From positions 11,495,320 through 11,559,319 of the forward strand of contig OY987230.1 in NCBI GenBank assembly GCA_963920705.1: a DNA stretch of 64,000 nt, given 5' to 3'. Below are positions 26,048 to 49,192 of this stretch, piece after piece. Below the pieces are notes generated by a model. The model worked only from the letters and a program-made list of their open reading frames with translations, was not told the DNA's origin and ran no database searches. The DNA comes from Odiellus spinosus (Eukaryota; Arthropoda; Arachnida; Opiliones; Phalangiidae). The position numbers and the translations under genes are program-made. The stretch's first letter is position 1, and each line of letters starts with the position of its first letter.

Positions 26048-26353
26048 GAAAACTAGCCAATAGCTACGGTCACACTAGCATTTCTTAATCCGTTTGAAAC
26101 GGTAAAATCAAACCGATATTCAAATCGCCAGGAATCGTTTTAAGCGTCACGTGTTCACGCATTATATTTATAAATCGATTTATTGTAGCTTCATCTATCG
26201 GTTGTTGAAACCGAATAAGTATGACACTGGTTCCCGAAGCAGTTTCGAGAAATCGAAACAAATCGATAAAAGACGGTTCCTGTTCACACGACTCCCGCGA
26301 AACGCTTTGAAACGGTTTAAATCGATTCCAAGGCCTAGTATGAACGCAGCTAT
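26048..26353. mobile_element. Intact 300-bp GTTCATACTAGG-family MITE
   Basis: Ends AGCTACGGTCACACTAG and GGCCTAGTATGAACGCAGC are imperfect inverses. It is the reference for the interrupted copy at 1645-2115 and for the partial copies at 27718 and 48947. The 72-codon frame inside it is incidental. Confidence 0.8.
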
Positions 26354-27717: not shown

Positions 27718-27981
27718 TGGCTACGATTTGAAACGGTAAAACCAAACCGATATGCAAATCGACAGGAATTGTTTTAAGCGTCACTTGTTCACGCATTATT
27801 TTTATAAATCGATTTATCGTAGCTTCATCTATCGGTCGTTGAAACTGAATATGTATGAAACTGGTTCCCGAAGCAGTTTCAAGAAGTCGAATCAAATCTA
27901 TTCGAGAAAAGACGGTTTCCCGTTCATACGACTACAGCGAAACGGTTTAAATCGATTCCAAGGTCTAGTATGAACGCCGCT
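27718..27981. mobile_element. Second copy of the 300-bp MITE, left end shortened
   Basis: It matches 26048-26353 in the same orientation (GATTTGAAACGGTAAAACCA through TCTAGTATGAACGCC) but lacks about 25 bp next to the left terminus. Confidence 0.78.
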
Positions 27982-40371: not shown

Positions 40372-43170
40372 ACAATTCCTTCTCAGATTTCAGAATATAT
40401 TTAGGTTTATATAAAAATTCTACCATAAAGTTTATTGGTTAAAAGAGCCGAAAAGCTTTGAAACTAATTCGCAGGTAATTTGCATACTTTTATCATAAAA
40501 TAAGTTCTTTTTAAAAAGCAGCTAGGGTGAATGACCTGGTTAATATCTTAAAAGGTTATAGTGTCATCATTTTTCGGTATAATTTTATGAACTAATAAAC
40601 AACTCATGCTTAATTATAACTTAAAATAAGAAGTTTCAGCACTTACTCGAGAGTTAGACTTTAATCTTTTAATCTTATATGAGATGGAACTTAGGCACAA
40701 ATCCTTTTAAATGTCATTTTATGCATTTTTTTTAGAAGAGATGTTTGTCCGCGAACGTATACACGTAATCCGGACTAATCTGACAGTAAATAATTTAATT
40801 AAAACTAATTCCTTTAAAGGCATAAAATTTCTTAATTAAAACTATAATACATATCTGGTTTTAACGTTTCCATAGCCTCCTCTTTATTGAAATAATGATC
40901 TATTATCTGTAGATCCTCCCTGTCAGCCACGAGAATCAGTAACTGTGATTTAATTGTTCTAAAGCCGGCCGTTTTAGCTACATAGATTAGATTAAAATTC
41001 TAGTTGACCCTATTTTAGGCATTTTTATAACCAGTTTCGTCTGGTAATAAAAATATTTTTTAAATGAGATGATTTTTATTTTTATCTTAAATATATTTTT
41101 CGTTCTACGAAATCCTTAATTCCTTTGAAATTCGCTGTCTTTGAAATGCTAATTAACTGGATAACGTTAGGATACGTGAAGTATGTGGGGATTGCAATTA
41201 AAACTGATTAATTGGAAAGTTTATATTGAATCCACGTTCATAATTATCTAACTGTATGTATCTGTTCTAGATGAGTTTGCAAATCGACCTAAGATCTATT
41301 CAATGTTAAACCACCAAATTTTGGCTTAAATTTTAGGTTATCATATTTCAGTTTTAATTATTTATTAAGAAATATTTGCCTTACATTTAGTATATTTAGT
41401 TCAGATCGCAAAATATTTATAATATAATAAATTCAGGTTATTATTATACAGAGCATATATTTTCATTGTATAGCTGTTAAAATCATATTATATTACAAAC
41501 CAAAGATTATTCTATTTAATGGAACTAAACCTTTGGAAGTCAATGCCTTTTGTAAATCGCTAACCTCTCACGTATTTTTTTTCCGCGCTGATATATTAAA
41601 GTAGACTAGGTGTTTTTTGGCTTCCATCCAAGGTAGATTAATTCCCTCACGTAGTAAACGTCAGATTCTATCTGATTCTATACCTCGAATGACAATTTTC
41701 GGAAAAAATATCTAACAAAACAAGCTTATATATCGTAAAAAAACTCGATGGCCTCTTTCGTATCTTTCGAACGCTTTCCTAGTTACACAATGGATAATTA
41801 TTAACCATTAAACTTTGTTATTGCTTTCTTGAACCTTGCCTCTACTGGCCAAGATTTTAGTTACACCCATGTTGCTGTTAATTTCATCATATAGTTATTT
41901 TGTTTTCAAGCTATTAAGATTAAATGTTTATCATCGGAATTTATTGTTCTTACCTATAAGAGATCTTAGAGAAATTTGGGTTATCTCCATATTTATTTTT
42001 AAGATAAGACTTTTTTTTTTACTTTTCAGCCATTTTTATTTCGTGTCGCAAATAATTTTGAATACATCTATGGAATGTCTAACTATAATTTCATAGAGCT
42101 TTGAGAATATAAGTTAAAATCATATTCTACGAATTCAGAACTGTCAAAACTGTCAAACGTAGATTTACACGCAAACAAACGATTATTTACTTAGGTAATA
42201 TATGGAAATATTTAAATTAAAATTCTACGAAACTAAACGGGTCATGGAAATCTTTACAAGAATTAAATATTACCAAAAAAATTTAGAAACTCCCGCTGCT
42301 ACCTCGAAAGAATTTTGGAATTTATTTTCCAACATGTACCGGTTAAAAAAAAAATACTTTTACTTTTCGTGGGTGTATAGTTTATGAAATTCTGTTTCAT
42401 CTTGATTTGTCAGTAGGAGCGATACTTGAAATTCTTTATAACGATAGATAGAAAAATCACAGGGATAAAAGGTAACCTATCATTGTACGCGCTGTTAAAT
42501 TAAGGTGGAATTGATTATAAAGTCGGTAACAGTTTCAAATTTCAGCATGTATAGAAAAATATAACAAATCAATATAGAATTTAAAAACCAAATCAGAAGG
42601 TTCAAATGTACCCAAAATTTGTACACTTTGCAAATTCACACTGACTCTGATTATAGTGATGCCGACGATGTGAAAAGAAGGTGGAAAATTTCAGGTTATT
42701 CCAGTTCCTATATCGAAATGTTCAACTTGAATAAGTAACAGATATAATTTTCAGTAGAAACAAAGCTACATACTATTTTTATTCTTAGATGCTACGTGTT
42801 TCTTATATAAATAGAAGTGGGTTTTCTCGAACTTCTATACGTTTTGAAAACTTAATGTGATTGTTTTAGGGTTTGCTACACGATTTTTGACGTCAATGCC
42901 TATAGTATAGCCCATCTCGAGATAGCTGCACGCACTATATATGTAACTAGGGAGCATCGTTTTGTACATAGTGCCAACTCTAGTTTCAATTAACTATATA
43001 TTTGATAGCGAAAAATAATGAGGGAAATGTAATTATATAAGCCTATCTCCTAAGGCTCGAAAACAACATCGCACCGTCTGTAAGGGATTATATTTGTTAT
43101 TGACGGCCGTAAATTGAGTGCGAAACGTATTATCCAGTAGCTAAGTCGGAGGGAAAGTAAGATTACCATA
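40372..43170. other. AT-rich DNA, no gene seen
   Basis: Short frames at 41836-42096 and 42202-42387 are AT-rich, without splice sites or recognisable motifs. Confidence 0.4.
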
Positions 43171-43775
43171 ATAGTCCATGAGCCAGCAGCAGTGTTCGGT
43201 ACCAATAGGTGGTACCAGACGAAACTTTGGTGGTCGATATATGCTGCTAAGGGTTTACCGAAAAAGCATGATGGACGTCTCAAATCCGTAGCATTTAAAA
43301 ATGGCGGCCATTTAAAGATGGCCGCCGCGTTAAATAGAAAATGGTTTATATCTCCGGTTCTAATCATCGCATCGACATGTTCTATACATCTAAATTAAGC
43401 TTAGACTGAACTGTACATTTCGTGTTTAGTAACAATATGTCCTATCATTAACAAGGAGGGCGCTACGAGCGAATTTAAGTCGACCCACCCTTTTCTAAGG
43501 GATTATTTTTCGATATTACTTAAACTGTTACTGAAACCTAATGTCAGCAATTTTTTCCTTAAAACGAATGGATTATTTCCTTTAATTTAAGACCTTTTGG
43601 AATGAAATCGAACAAAATCAGCCTTCGTCATTAATTAAAATAAAACCTTTCTAGATACATATACTCAAGTTTTTGGATATTTAAAGGGGTTTTCGGTGGA
43701 AAGTTGTTAATATTATTATTGGGGGAATGGGTGGTTAAACCTCTAACCGCTCAGTTTACGGCATTGCTCTATACA

Positions 43776-44024
43776 TACATTCATGAAAAAGACAAATATA
43801 TTCATGAAAAAGACAAATATATTCATGAAAAAGACAAATATATTCATGAAAAAGACAAATATATTCATGAAAAAGACAAATATATTCATGAAAAAGACAA
43901 ATATATTCATGAAAAAGACAAATATATTCATGAAAAAGACAAATATATTCATGAAAAAGACAAATATATTCATGAAAAAGACAAATATATTCATGAAAAA
44001 GACAAATATATTCATGAAAAAGAC
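43776..44024. repeat. 21-bp minisatellite, 12 units, left arm
   Basis: The unit is TATTCATGAAAAAGACAAA plus two bases, 12 copies with virtually no variation. Each unit contains the palindrome TTCATGAA. Because 21 is a multiple of three and the unit lacks stops, several frames on both strands stay open (heptads such as YIHEKDK, MKKTNIF, NIFVFFM). These frames have no support as genes. Confidence 0.95.
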
Positions 44025-44106
44025 ACGTACACGTAGAAATATAGATTTTATTAACAAACACGTACAAAACTCCAGACTCAATAAATAAACAAAATTATTT
44101 TTTAAC

Positions 44107-44747
44107 GAGGGTTTAATCATCCTCTTCGCTCTCAATGTCATTTACATCTAGAAGATTTATATCGTCAGCACTTTCACACATATTTGTACAGCTCTGAAGC
44201 TTGCACGCGTCTGTACATTTTAGTCCATTTGAGTAGCACTGACATTTTTTCCTACGCATGACTTTGAACAGTTACAAGCAATGAATTCCAGAATGGCTTC
44301 TGGTGCAGGAGACCCTCTTATCCATTTAATAGACAAATGGCCATCGTTTTTAATTTCCCATCCATTGCCATCAGGGGAGGGTATATCTGGACACCTGGTT
44401 AGTGAACGTCTCCATATGCCGGCCTGATAGTTCGCTCTCAGAGCATGAAGATTTAGTGCATCTTCGCAAGGGGGCAATTGTCCAGACTCCACTGCTCCTT
44501 TTTTGGCCCGCCATAGCTGATATCGAAGAGCATTGACTTGAGTGACATTGGTGGTTGGGGCGTACAAATGGCAAGTGAAATGTTGTAAATCGTTGAACAA
44601 TTGGCATTCTAAATGAAATTTCTCGCCTAGGGAAGCAAACGCTGCTTGAAATTTCTTATCTGTTTTAAGTAGTTTTAGTCCTTTAATTTTCCCTTGCCCT
44701 GAAACCAAAACCAGAACTCGATTGGTGATGACGAAAATGGCTGTCAC
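44107..44747 (-). pseudogene. Transposon-linked protein fragment, left-arm copy, frameshifted
   Basis: It is the same protein as the right-arm copy from SGQGKIKG onward, with the tryptophan codon intact. A run of six instead of seven A/T near 44247 shifts the frame before the cysteine-rich end, which becomes NVSATQMD and stops at 44220. The correct frame would continue to about 44107. A 3-bp deletion plus substitution changes SPSPSEA to SPAPEA. Upstream of SGQGK the frame is read from spacer antisense and is not homologous. Confidence 0.72.
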
Positions 44748-45414
44748 TTTAGGACCAAATCTGTGTAAAGCATTGCTTGGGTTCCACGCTTACACAGGGT
44801 GTGACACAGTGAGCGCCTTTTCAGGGCAAGGGAAAATTAAAGGACTAAAACTACTTAAAACAGATAAGAAATTTCAAGCAGCGTTTGCTTCCCTAGGCGA
44901 GAAATTTCATTTAGAATGCCAATTGTTCAACGATTTACAACATTTCACTTGCCATTTGTACGCCCCAACCACCAATGTCACTCAAGTCAATGCTCTTCGA
45001 TATCAGCTATGACGGGCCAAAAAAGGAGCAGTGGAGTCTGGACAATTGCCCCCTTGCGAAGATGCACTAAATCTTCATGCTCTGAGAGCGAACTATCAGG
45101 CCGGCATATGGAGACGTTCACTAACCAGGTGTCCAGATATACCCTCCCCTGATGGCAATGGATGGGAAATTAAAAACGATGGCCATTTGTCTATTAAATG
45201 GATAAGAGGGTCTCCTTCACCATCAGAAGCCATTCTGGAATTCATTGCTTGTAACTGTTCAAAGTCATGCGTAGGAAAAAAATGTCAGTGCTACTCAAAT
45301 GGACTAAAATGTACAGACGCGTGCAAGCTTCAGAGCTGTACAAATATGTGTGAAATTGCTGACGATATAAATCTTCTAGATGTAAATGACATTGAGAGCG
45401 AAGAGGATGATTAA
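44722..45414 (+). pseudogene. Transposon-linked protein fragment, right-arm copy, one internal stop
   Basis: The frame reads LGPNLCKALLGFHAYTGCDT, then SGQGKIKGLKLLKTDKKF, continuing through a middle domain to a cysteine-rich end (CNCSKSC, KKCQCYSNGLKCTDAC, SCTNMC) and an acidic C-terminus. A TGA at 45010-45012 replaces the tryptophan codon present in the other arm. The 5' part is missing: the frame runs back into antisense left-arm sequence. The block GCDTVSAFSGQGKIKGLKLL resembles the helix-hairpin-helix of FEN1/XPG-like nucleases (G-DT...G-GK--ALKLL). The Cys-rich end resembles CXC-type zinc-binding modules. Such proteins are widespread, usually uncharacterised, in invertebrate genomes. 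Confidence 0.72.
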
Positions 45415-45502
45415 ACCCTCGTTAAAAAATAATTTTGTTTATTTATTGAGTCTGGAGTTTTGTACGTGTTTGTTAATAAAATCTATATTTCTACGTGTAC
45501 GT

Positions 45503-45751
45503 GTCTTTTTCATGAATATATTTGTCTTTTTCATGAATATATTTGTCTTTTTCATGAATATATTTGTCTTTTTCATGAATATATTTGTCTTTTTCATGAA
45601 TATATTTGTCTTTTTCATGAATATATTTGTCTTTTTCATGAATATATTTGTCTTTTTCATGAATATATTTGTCTTTTTCATGAATATATTTGTCTTTTTC
45701 ATGAATATATTTGTCTTTTTCATGAATATATTTGTCTTTTTCATGAATGTA
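45503..45751. repeat. 21-bp minisatellite, 12 units, right arm
   Basis: The inverse copy of 43776-44024 with the same unit number. Both ends pass into the same flanking sequence as in the left arm. Confidence 0.95.
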
Positions 45752-46466
45752 TGTATAGAGCAATGCCGTAAACTGAGCGGTTAGAGGTTTAACCACCCAT
45801 TCCCCCAATAATAATATTAACAACTTTCCACCGAAAACCCCTTTAAATATCCAAAAACTTGAGTATATGTATCTAGAAAGGTTTTATTTTAATTAATGAC
45901 GAAGGCTGATTTTGTTCGATTTCATTCCAAAAGGTCTTAAATTAAAGGAAATAATCCATTCGTTTTAAGGAAAAAAATTGCTGACATTAGGTTTCAGTAA
46001 CAGTTTAAGTAATATCGAAAAATAATCCCTTAGAAAAGGGTGGGTCGACTTAAATTCGCTCGTAGCGCCCTCCTTGTTAATGATAGGACATATTGTTACT
46101 AAACCGAAATGTACAGTTCAGTCTAAGCTTAATTTAGATGTATAGAACATGTCGATGCGATGATTAGAACCGGAGAAATAAACCATTTTCTATTTAACGC
46201 GGCGGCCATCTTTAAATGGCCGCCATTTTTAAATGCTACGGATTTGAGACGTCCATCATGCTTTTTCGGTAAACCCTTAGCAGCATATATCGACCACCAA
46301 AGTTTCGTCTGGTACCACCTATTGGTACCGATCAGCTAATTTTTTGCTGCTGGCTCATGGACTATAATAAGTGTGATACAATCTTGAAAAAGAGATACAA
46401 TTGGTTGAAAATCTTACGAGGAACGCGTACTTAATTGCTCGTGAATTTAGCTTCAACTACGTTTTG

Positions 46467-46720
46467 TTCACGATAAGATATCTTCCACGGCGCTTTGTTC
46501 ACGAGAAGATATCTTCAACTGTGTTCACGAGAAGATATCTTCAACTGTGTTCACGAGAAGATATCTTCAACTGTGTTCACGAGAAGATATCTTCAACTGT
46601 GTTCACGAGAAGATATCTTCAACTGTGTTCACGATAAGGTATCTTCGACGGGGTTTTGTTCACGAGAAGATATCTTCGACGGTGCTTTGTTCACGAGAAG
46701 ATATCTTCGACGGTGCTTGG
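46467..46720. repeat. 26-bp minisatellite with a 12-bp palindrome in each unit
   Basis: About nine units of GTTCACGAGAAGATATCTTC plus AACTGT (or CGACGGTGCTTT in the outer units). Each contains the perfect palindrome GAAGATATCTTC. It begins about 100 bp outside the right arm of the palindrome and has no counterpart outside the left arm. The 78-109-codon frames here are by-products. Confidence 0.92.
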
Positions 46721-47656: not shown

Positions 47657-48946
47657 GTTTTTTATATTAAACATAAGTCTTCGTAAAAGAATGGTGACAG
47701 CCTCTCTTTTAGGGTTATATTTGAAGGATTTATTTTAAGTAAAAATTTAGGGCGTAAAAACGTTTTACTGACAAAAAACAAAAAAAAAAAAAAAAATGCT
47801 TCTATTTATCTCGAATAATTGGAATTTCCAAACCGAAGGTATTTGTAAGTTATCACGCGTTTACTTTGAAGTTTTTTACGTGAAATAAAATTATTTCCTT
47901 CTATTTACTTTAGCTGGTATATCGATTTACCCTTGATAAAAACCCTCTTTCGTAATTTATGATTTGAATTTAAAATTACTTTTGATTTTAATATCACGGA
48001 AATTTTTACGTTTAACAGTAAATTATCAACCGATTTATGGCGTTCTCTTTCTTCTTACAAATATTTTCGATTATTTATCGTATGATAAAAATATTTTTTA
48101 CAATATTTTCCCCCAAAAAGAATTTGTTAAACTCGTGTTCAGGGTTGTCTGAGTTTTTTTTTTTTTTTATTTTATTTATATCACATTTATTTTTATTTTT
48201 AATCAAGTGGTCTTTACTATCTTTTAATTCAACATAATTCGAGGCTAATTTCAGCGTTTCAAAAGTATTTTGATATTAATTAAAATATTGAAAATTAGTT
48301 TACGAAGATGAGATTTAAAAACATAAGAAAAATCTAGTTTTTATTTACACACAAAATAAGAGTTTCGAGAGCTTTTTGGTGAAATTACATTTAAGTTTGC
48401 CGGTTTATTTGTAATTTATTCAATATATTTCACTGCGTTTTAATTTGAAAAAAATATATATAATGTTAATTTTTAAATTAATTTTCAAATTAAAACCAAT
48501 CTCATTACAGTCGACGGTCTATGTTAGGATTTAATCAGTTAATTTTCATTAAAAAGAAATAAAGAAAAACAAAAAGTTTCAACAAATCTAAAATCCTTTC
48601 TTATATAAAAAGATTTGTTTCAGTCTAGATTTTCCATCGACCTGAAAAAAATAAATCCATTGTGCTTTGCAGAAAATGGACCGAATTTATTATCACCAAA
48701 AAAATTCGCAGAAGCTTAGTGTATATCAAAAAGTCCGATCGATTTTATTATATAAGCTTTGTAAGCTTTGTATATACCCAGTTTAGGCTTCGATAAAGGG
48801 GCCAACACAAGAAACATTTCGGATTTCATTTTACTTTGATTAATTTTGATCAAGTGAGACTGAGCCGGTTTTTTCATGAACCCCGAATGGAAACTGAGTA
48901 GCATTATCGGAAAGATCGTTAAGAAATGATTCAATATACATAGATA
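47657..48946. other. Very AT-rich DNA, no gene seen
   Basis: A-run (about 47777-47797), T-run (about 48155-48168) and AT-rich short frames only. Confidence 0.4.
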
Positions 48947-49192
48947 CTTTTACACTAGCAATACTTTATCGATTTGAAACGGTAATATCAAATCGATATT
49001 CAAATCGCCAGCAATCGTTTTAAGCGGAATTTGTTCACGGTTTACTGTAGCTTCATCTGTCGGTTGTTGACACCAAATCGGTATGAAATTGGTTCCCATA
49101 GTAGTCGATTCGAGAAAAGACGGTTTCCAATTCACGAAACGTTTTGAAACGGTTTAAATCGATTCCAAGACCTAGTATGAACGCAGCTATAG
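48947..49192. mobile_element. Third partial copy of the 300-bp MITE
   Basis: It runs from TTACACTAGCAATACTTTAT to GACCTAGTATGAACGCAGC, in the same orientation as 26048-26353 with internal deletions. A short echo (GATTCCAAGGCCTAGT) follows at about 49193. Confidence 0.75.

Follow-up and report, generated by a model that had tools for sequence, protein, structure and literature searches.

A Foldback-Like DNA Transposon Family That Moves as a Palindrome with Unequal Tip Spacers in Odiellus spinosus

The 3.2-kb palindrome found in the window (i.e., the whole stretch of 64,000 nucleotides of Odiellus spinosus DNA that was analysed, from contig OY987230.1) is a member of a mobile, non-autonomous, foldback-like DNA transposon family, which moves as a palindrome. 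Its copies are dispersed through the genome and have the inner junction in common, along with 3-bp target duplications, and in some of them both arms carry the same sequence variants. The 15-nt tip is shared exactly with non-palindromic elements, and one of these at least, L063, has a long form of the gene that is truncated in the palindrome. Very probably, the whole is explained by a foldback-like cut-and-paste family, in which the inverted repeats would have grown inward by gap repair, the palindrome would be mobilised in trans and the arms would later have been subject to conversion.

Anatomy of the Palindrome

An inverted-repeat search and an alignment of the arms bear out the original prediction of a 3.2-kb palindrome, in which ~99% identical arms of 1.5 kb surround a 114-bp spacer: the arms measure ~1.53 and ~1.55 kb (1534 nt at 43171–44704 and 1547 nt at 44819–46365 by inverted match). 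The interval first given for it, 43171–46365, is correct in location, but its two end bases are part of the TAA target duplication, so that the element proper is 43172–46364. Three parts make up each arm: the outer block of the inverted repeat, a minisatellite with 21-bp units and a transposon gene's 3′ end. The features, in window positions, are as follows (basis in brackets).

43169–43171, no strand: left target site duplication, TAA (TAA flanks the element on both sides)
43171–44704, plus: left arm by inverted match, 43171 being the last base of the target duplication (arm alignment)
43172–43186, plus: terminal 15-mer TAGTCCATGAGCCAG of the A (short-spacer) end (exact-copy count in 443 Mb)
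43187–43196, plus: 10-nt spacer of the A end, preceding CGGTACCA at 43197–43204 (sequence; one short end in 8/8 palindromes)
43775–44025, plus: 21-bp minisatellite of the left arm, 12 units (tandem-repeat count)
44113–44704, minus: left-arm inverted copy of the 3′ coding end of the gene (ORF 44220–44789, minus strand; alignment to the right arm)
44705–44818, plus: single-copy spacer, the gene sequence immediately upstream of the arm (comparison of copies)
44705–45414, plus: C-terminal transposon-protein remnant, from the TGCDTVSAF...GK region to a Cys-rich, CXC-like end (ORF; relatives)
44819–46365, minus: right arm by inverted match, 46365 being the first base of the target duplication (arm alignment)
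45502–45752, minus: 21-bp minisatellite of the right arm, 12 units (tandem-repeat count)
46331–46349, minus: 19-nt spacer of the B end, preceding CGGTACCA, the complement of 46323–46330 (sequence; one long end in 8/8 palindromes)
46350–46364, minus: terminal 15-mer of the B (long-spacer) end (exact-copy count)
46365–46367, no strand: right target site duplication, TAA (comparison of flanks)

Ungapped inverted repeats extend over 700 nt (43551–44250/45277–45976; 100% as rounded), 404 nt (44301–44704/44819–45222; 100% as rounded) and 230 nt (43193–43422/46105–46334; 99%), matches long enough to require no chance model. When 43171–44704 is aligned with 44819–46365, the interior of the arms shows four substitutions and four indels (three of 1 nt, one of 3 nt), and the regions near the tips differ by two further substitutions and by 9 nt in length. 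The aligner placed two 21-nt gaps within the minisatellite of this copy, which offset each other. Spacer and right arm form one continuous reading frame, the C-terminal remnant, inside which the window copy has a stop codon at 45010–45012. The spacer had been taken for single-copy coding sequence: it does occur once within the element and continues the reading frame, but it is multi-copy in the genome.

The window holds further repeats. A 26-bp tandem array (TGTTCACGAGAAGATATCTTCAACTG) is located at 46465–46715, ~100 bp beyond the right end of the palindrome. A second near-perfect palindrome has 201-nt arms with one mismatch (12306–12506/12612–12812) and 105 nt between them, while a third inverted repeat has 100-nt arms at 82% (57959–58058/58240–58339), 181 nt apart. 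A dispersed repeat family occurs at 1979–2120, 26057–26267, 27724–27901 and 48940–49105, with members ~74–93% alike.

Palindromic Copies Across the Genome

We searched the assembly from which the window was taken (443 Mb in 286 contigs) with the left arm as the query; the counts are lower bounds. At least eight palindromes were identified: two on contig C1, one each on C7, C11, C14, C45 and C183, and the window copy on C6. All matches of at least 94% over more than 100 nt sit within these eight; the other matches listed are short or 68–75% alike. Since the C45 copy and one of the C1 copies have ~99% alike flanks, we counted them as one insertion (duplicated or allelic), which leaves seven independent sites.

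Exact 3-bp target duplications (TAA, ATG, TAA, TAA, AGA, AAT and AAA) surround all seven independent insertions. The central spacer, 114 nt in the window copy, is 117 nt in six of the seven other copies, and the centre is lost in C14. The inner junction is identical in all seven palindromes that have a centre, that is, also at five of the six other independent sites. Dispersed copies, a common centre and exact target duplications imply that the palindrome transposes as a unit; as in foldback-like (2-TIR) elements, long terminal inverted repeats account for most of its length, and it moves as a whole, leaving a target duplication. The C7 palindrome is split by a 3.8-kb insert in one arm (L037:3268–7050), whose inverted ends resemble CACTGTAAAAAA; with the long tandem arrays in its interior, it looks like another DNA transposon. 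In addition, a related single end (L038; C2:21991013) is 75% alike over 150 nt, and no partner end was recognised within 9.9 kb of it.

Exchange Between the Arms

The equal number of minisatellite units seen in the two arms holds for the window copy (12/12) but is not a property of the family: arm pairs are equal in three of the eight copies (12/12, 11/11 and 2/2) and unequal in the other five (2/10, 3/4, 26/8, 21/17 and 2/about 31). As in 2-TIR elements, tandem repeats inside the inverted repeats are thus variable, here from 2 to ~31 units of 21 bp per arm amongst the eight copies. L032 and L035, which have the same flanks (~99%), carry 2/10 and 3/4 units, respectively, and provide a gauge of how fast the array turns over.

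Substitutions were compared in seven copies (the duplicate, C1a, being excluded), using sites beyond alignment column 40 at which the minor allele occurs in at least two arms. At 10 of the 12 informative sites, the minor allele is found in both arms of one copy, while the other two connect arms of different copies. Of 5040 random re-pairings of the arms, 48 reach as much sharing as observed, a count that uses substitutions only and treats linked sites as separate; the permutation including gaps (8/5040) was discarded, its result being inflated by the large deletion in C14. None of the informative sites beyond the tips splits A arms from B arms.

Similar arms could also reflect nothing but the youth of the family, with no copying from arm to arm since the palindrome formed. 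Mean arm divergence is only a little lower within a copy (0.74%) than between copies (0.96–0.97%), 49 substitutions occur in one arm only, and the five unequal minisatellite pairs point the same way. However, seven substitutions are present in both arms of one copy alone (three in C14, four in C183), small deletions are common to both arms of C1b, and the spacer of C183 is inverted relative to the tips (the only such case amongst the seven copies with a spacer), all of which make youth as the sole cause unlikely. Arm-to-arm copying is supported, by sequence comparison, in these three copies: C14, C183 and C1b. The suggestion of ongoing conversion between the arms therefore stands for the family, whose arms do exchange sequence, while the window copy itself offers no separate proof of it.

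Non-Palindromic Elements Sharing the Tip

The exact 15-mer tip, TAGTCCATGAGCCAG, has 41 copies in the 443 Mb, against none for the reversed control. Thirty-eight of them constitute 19 convergent pairs, 2.0–7.9 kb apart, and three are single. The pairs delimit the eight palindromes and 11 non-palindromic elements of 2.5–7.9 kb, nine of which have exact 3-bp target duplications, absent in the other two. Three of the 11 (L063, L064 and L060) were read whole, and the remaining eight at least at their tips.

L063 (6474 bp) has its gene spread over several frames, the longest of 1100 codons. The 7246 bp of L064 include reverse-transcriptase-like frames, of 852 and 255 codons, that run antisense to the gene, from which we conclude that it carries a nested retroelement. 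L060 is ~2.5 kb long. The 3′ part of the gene in these three elements shows 47.6–50% amino acid identity to a composite query. A 520-nt section of the L063 inverted repeats shows 99.2% identity, while their outer 47–57 nt are 75% alike, with a 31-nt indel between the two sections. Those of L060 and L064 are only 88–89% identical, so homogenisation is not general.

There are two further related families. L062 represents a more distant family, with a 1464-codon frame and the tips TAGCCCAGTAAA. L061 (with L078) has a 1445-codon frame, ends in TAGACCGGGAGCTAG, is flanked by a TAA duplication and has inverted repeats of ~430–449 nt at 94%. The Pfam domain DUF6589 scores above the cut-off in L061 and below it in L062.

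Gene Remnant and Class Assignment

The palindrome retains only the C-terminal part of the gene. A Pfam search with the remnant yielded a single CXC match (PF03638, E 0.008), which lies below the cut-off, with only a CXC-like, Cys-rich end visible. The remnant alone gave no informative match in the PDB; a search of phage records turned up nothing related, and one of viral contigs nothing beyond one unconfirmed pattern match. Amongst the best candidates scored in this genome, the remnant occurs at 90% or more only within palindromes; the next best match is at 51% (53% by another alignment) and the following ones at 46% or less, some of them in open frames of more than 1400 codons. As no non-palindromic match amongst these candidates exceeds 53% protein identity, the direct parent is missing.

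This bears on the idea that the palindrome persists through a long-hairpin transcript, which would feed small-RNA silencing of the parent in the manner of Mu killer. The anatomy is alike: in the description of Mu killer, a section of a transposon gene is duplicated in inverse orientation, and one inverted-repeat region is present twice (PMC3440606). Moreover, the search of this assembly revealed no full-length parent. On the other hand, DNA similarity to the two relatives compared is just ~69–72% over 102–131 nt of the gene part, and the palindrome is a spreading family rather than a single locus. We consider such a silencing role quite unlikely.

The complete gene can be approached through the relatives. 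A profile of five of them matched EXO1 with a whole-sequence E-value of 4e-4, made up of two collinear stretches that are individually non-significant (i-Evalues ~4 and 0.9), and FEN1 at ~1, with unrelated proteins ranking between the two at 0.5–0.7. Pfam searches listed no XPG model, and the AlphaFold model of the nuclease region (pLDDT 42) is too poor to use. The profile matches would fit a gene that encodes an XPG-type nuclease (EXO1/FEN1-like). The nuclease of AcademX transposons is of the XPG type, and a Cys8 zinc finger is another of their features.

AcademX elements are described as encoding a nuclease and as having target duplications of 3 or 4 bp (PMC10045372); the present relatives have 3 bp and an EXO1/FEN1-like region. 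Duplications of 3 bp, found in 7/7 independent palindromes and 9/11 non-palindromic elements with the same tip, and the likely nuclease agree with AcademX as described, and the family would fit as Academ-like, likened by description only. It differs from AcademX in its palindromic derivative, which misses most of the gene.

Unequal Tip Spacers

The distance from the 15-mer to NNNTACCA, at the TACCA box, is unequal between the two ends of each element. One end with 10 nt and one with 19–20 nt occur in 19 of 19 paired elements, which represent only three families with a common ancestor; the three single tips are outside this count. The pairs are 10/19 in the eight palindromes and 10/20 in the 11 non-palindromic elements, so that each of the 19 has one short and one long end, about one helical turn apart. 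Across families, the short spacers match at two to three of 10 positions and the long ones at nine to 11 of 19–20, and hence spacer length is better kept than sequence, at least for the short spacer. The long tip lies on the 3′ side of the gene in L063 and in six of the seven palindromes with a spacer, and on the 5′ side in L064, L060 and L062.

In the L062 family, 17 versus 27 nt precede a common inner block in all five paired copies, and an extra single end has 26. The tips of the L061 family (one element) match without such a length difference, apart from a 15-nt indel ~109 nt in; the tip rule is, therefore, not universal.

At RAG/Transib ends, spacing is unequal between the two ends according to the 12/23 rule. 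It is conceivable, although we hold it tentatively and rather doubt it, that the movable unit needs tip spacers of ~10 and ~20 bp between 15-mer and TACCA box, in analogy to the 12/23 rule and P-element ends. The palindrome is a natural test of such a rule because its arms are alike except at this spacer, which is unequal in 8/8 copies. In the P element, as described, the spacing from the tip to the inner binding site is unequal between the ends (PMC7776569), and the present tips may be comparable; they differ from P-element and RAG ends in having 10 versus 19–20 nt and in belonging to an element of another kind. A literature search did not find a tip rule in such elements, but its coverage was partial and absence is not proven.

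Origin of the Palindrome

An inverted duplication within a reading frame, as originally predicted, must have created the ancestor of the family. The duplication did not, however, take place at the window locus. The alternatives are a local fold-back there by template switching and a fold-back artefact of sequencing or assembly. Near-identical arms, a short spacer and an inner junction within a reading frame would suit either. Yet family palindromes occur at six other independent sites, five of which share the junction; the arms end exactly at the common transposon tip; and 3-bp duplications link both flanks at each site. Missed adapters or misjoined alleles do not account for copies whose flanks differ from site to site while the target duplications match across each. 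Once the genome search had revealed the dispersed copies, both the local fold-back and the artefact were abandoned as explanations, and we regard them as very improbable. That two 5′-truncated copies of one element inserted head to head is scarcely credible, even though the 3′ end is present twice in inverse orientation, given a single 3-bp duplication around the whole palindrome, the same junction in the seven copies with a centre and a spacer that extends the reading frame of one arm; in this respect, the earlier dismissal of two independent insertions was right.

We favour instead an origin within a transposon. For Galileo elements, growth of the inverted repeats has been proposed to occur when one repeat is repaired from the other plus neighbouring sequence (PMC3573991). 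The ancestor of the present family would have been ~6 kb long and have carried a nuclease-type gene. Its broken 5′ side may have been repaired from the 3′ inverted repeat plus the 3′ end of the gene, in inverse orientation, by gap repair templated by the inverted repeat and end joining, as proposed for Galileo. The product would have kept 117 bp of the gene as spacer, as well as the original 5′ tip, which survives because one inverted repeat is repaired from the other together with its neighbour; the palindrome would thus retain one short-spacer and one long-spacer tip. In this way, the terminal inverted repeats would have extended inward until only the 114–117-bp spacer was left outside them. 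The pattern seen in L063 seems to reach its extreme in the palindrome, with the repeat grown inward across the minisatellite and the 3′ end of the gene. As the shared tips suggest, it may be mobilised in trans by the transposase of a related element. Gene conversion would later have homogenised the arms, an occasional crossover flipping the spacer.

Relation to Known Elements

In the description of Galileo 2-TIR elements (Drosophila; P superfamily, foldback-like), these share with the present family a non-autonomous structure of almost only long inverted repeats, tandem repeats within the latter in numbers unequal between the sides, and recruitment of internal sequence inward (PMC3573991). The repeats of one Galileo copy are reported there to be 98–100% identical, for which recombination and conversion were proposed (PMC3573991). 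The present family belongs to another superfamily, has recruited coding sequence and has a spacer of ~117 bp, 3-bp duplications and tips of fixed length difference. Foldback/Tetris elements, as described, are likewise non-autonomous, with long inverted repeats containing tandem repeats and few structurally complete copies (PMC4079207). Tetris has 8–10-bp duplications and, in the same description, no conserved ORFs (PMC4079207), whereas the present family has 3-bp duplications and still carries a coding remnant. Mu killer of maize resembles the present palindrome in that a transposon gene is partly duplicated in inverse orientation and one inverted-repeat region occurs twice (PMC3440606), but it is a silencing locus, whereas the palindromes form a mobile family. 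The foldback/2-TIR kind of element is, therefore, already known; the family itself, its coding-sequence arms and its tip asymmetry appear to be new as far as the literature search reached.

Long palindromes are expected to decay. The present transposon multiplies in palindromic form, and its copies allow conversion between arms, change in minisatellite number and inversion of the spacer to be compared directly. The unequal tips, kept amid equalised arms, would offer a cheap test for a 12/23-like synapsis rule outside the RAG/Transib and P lineages.
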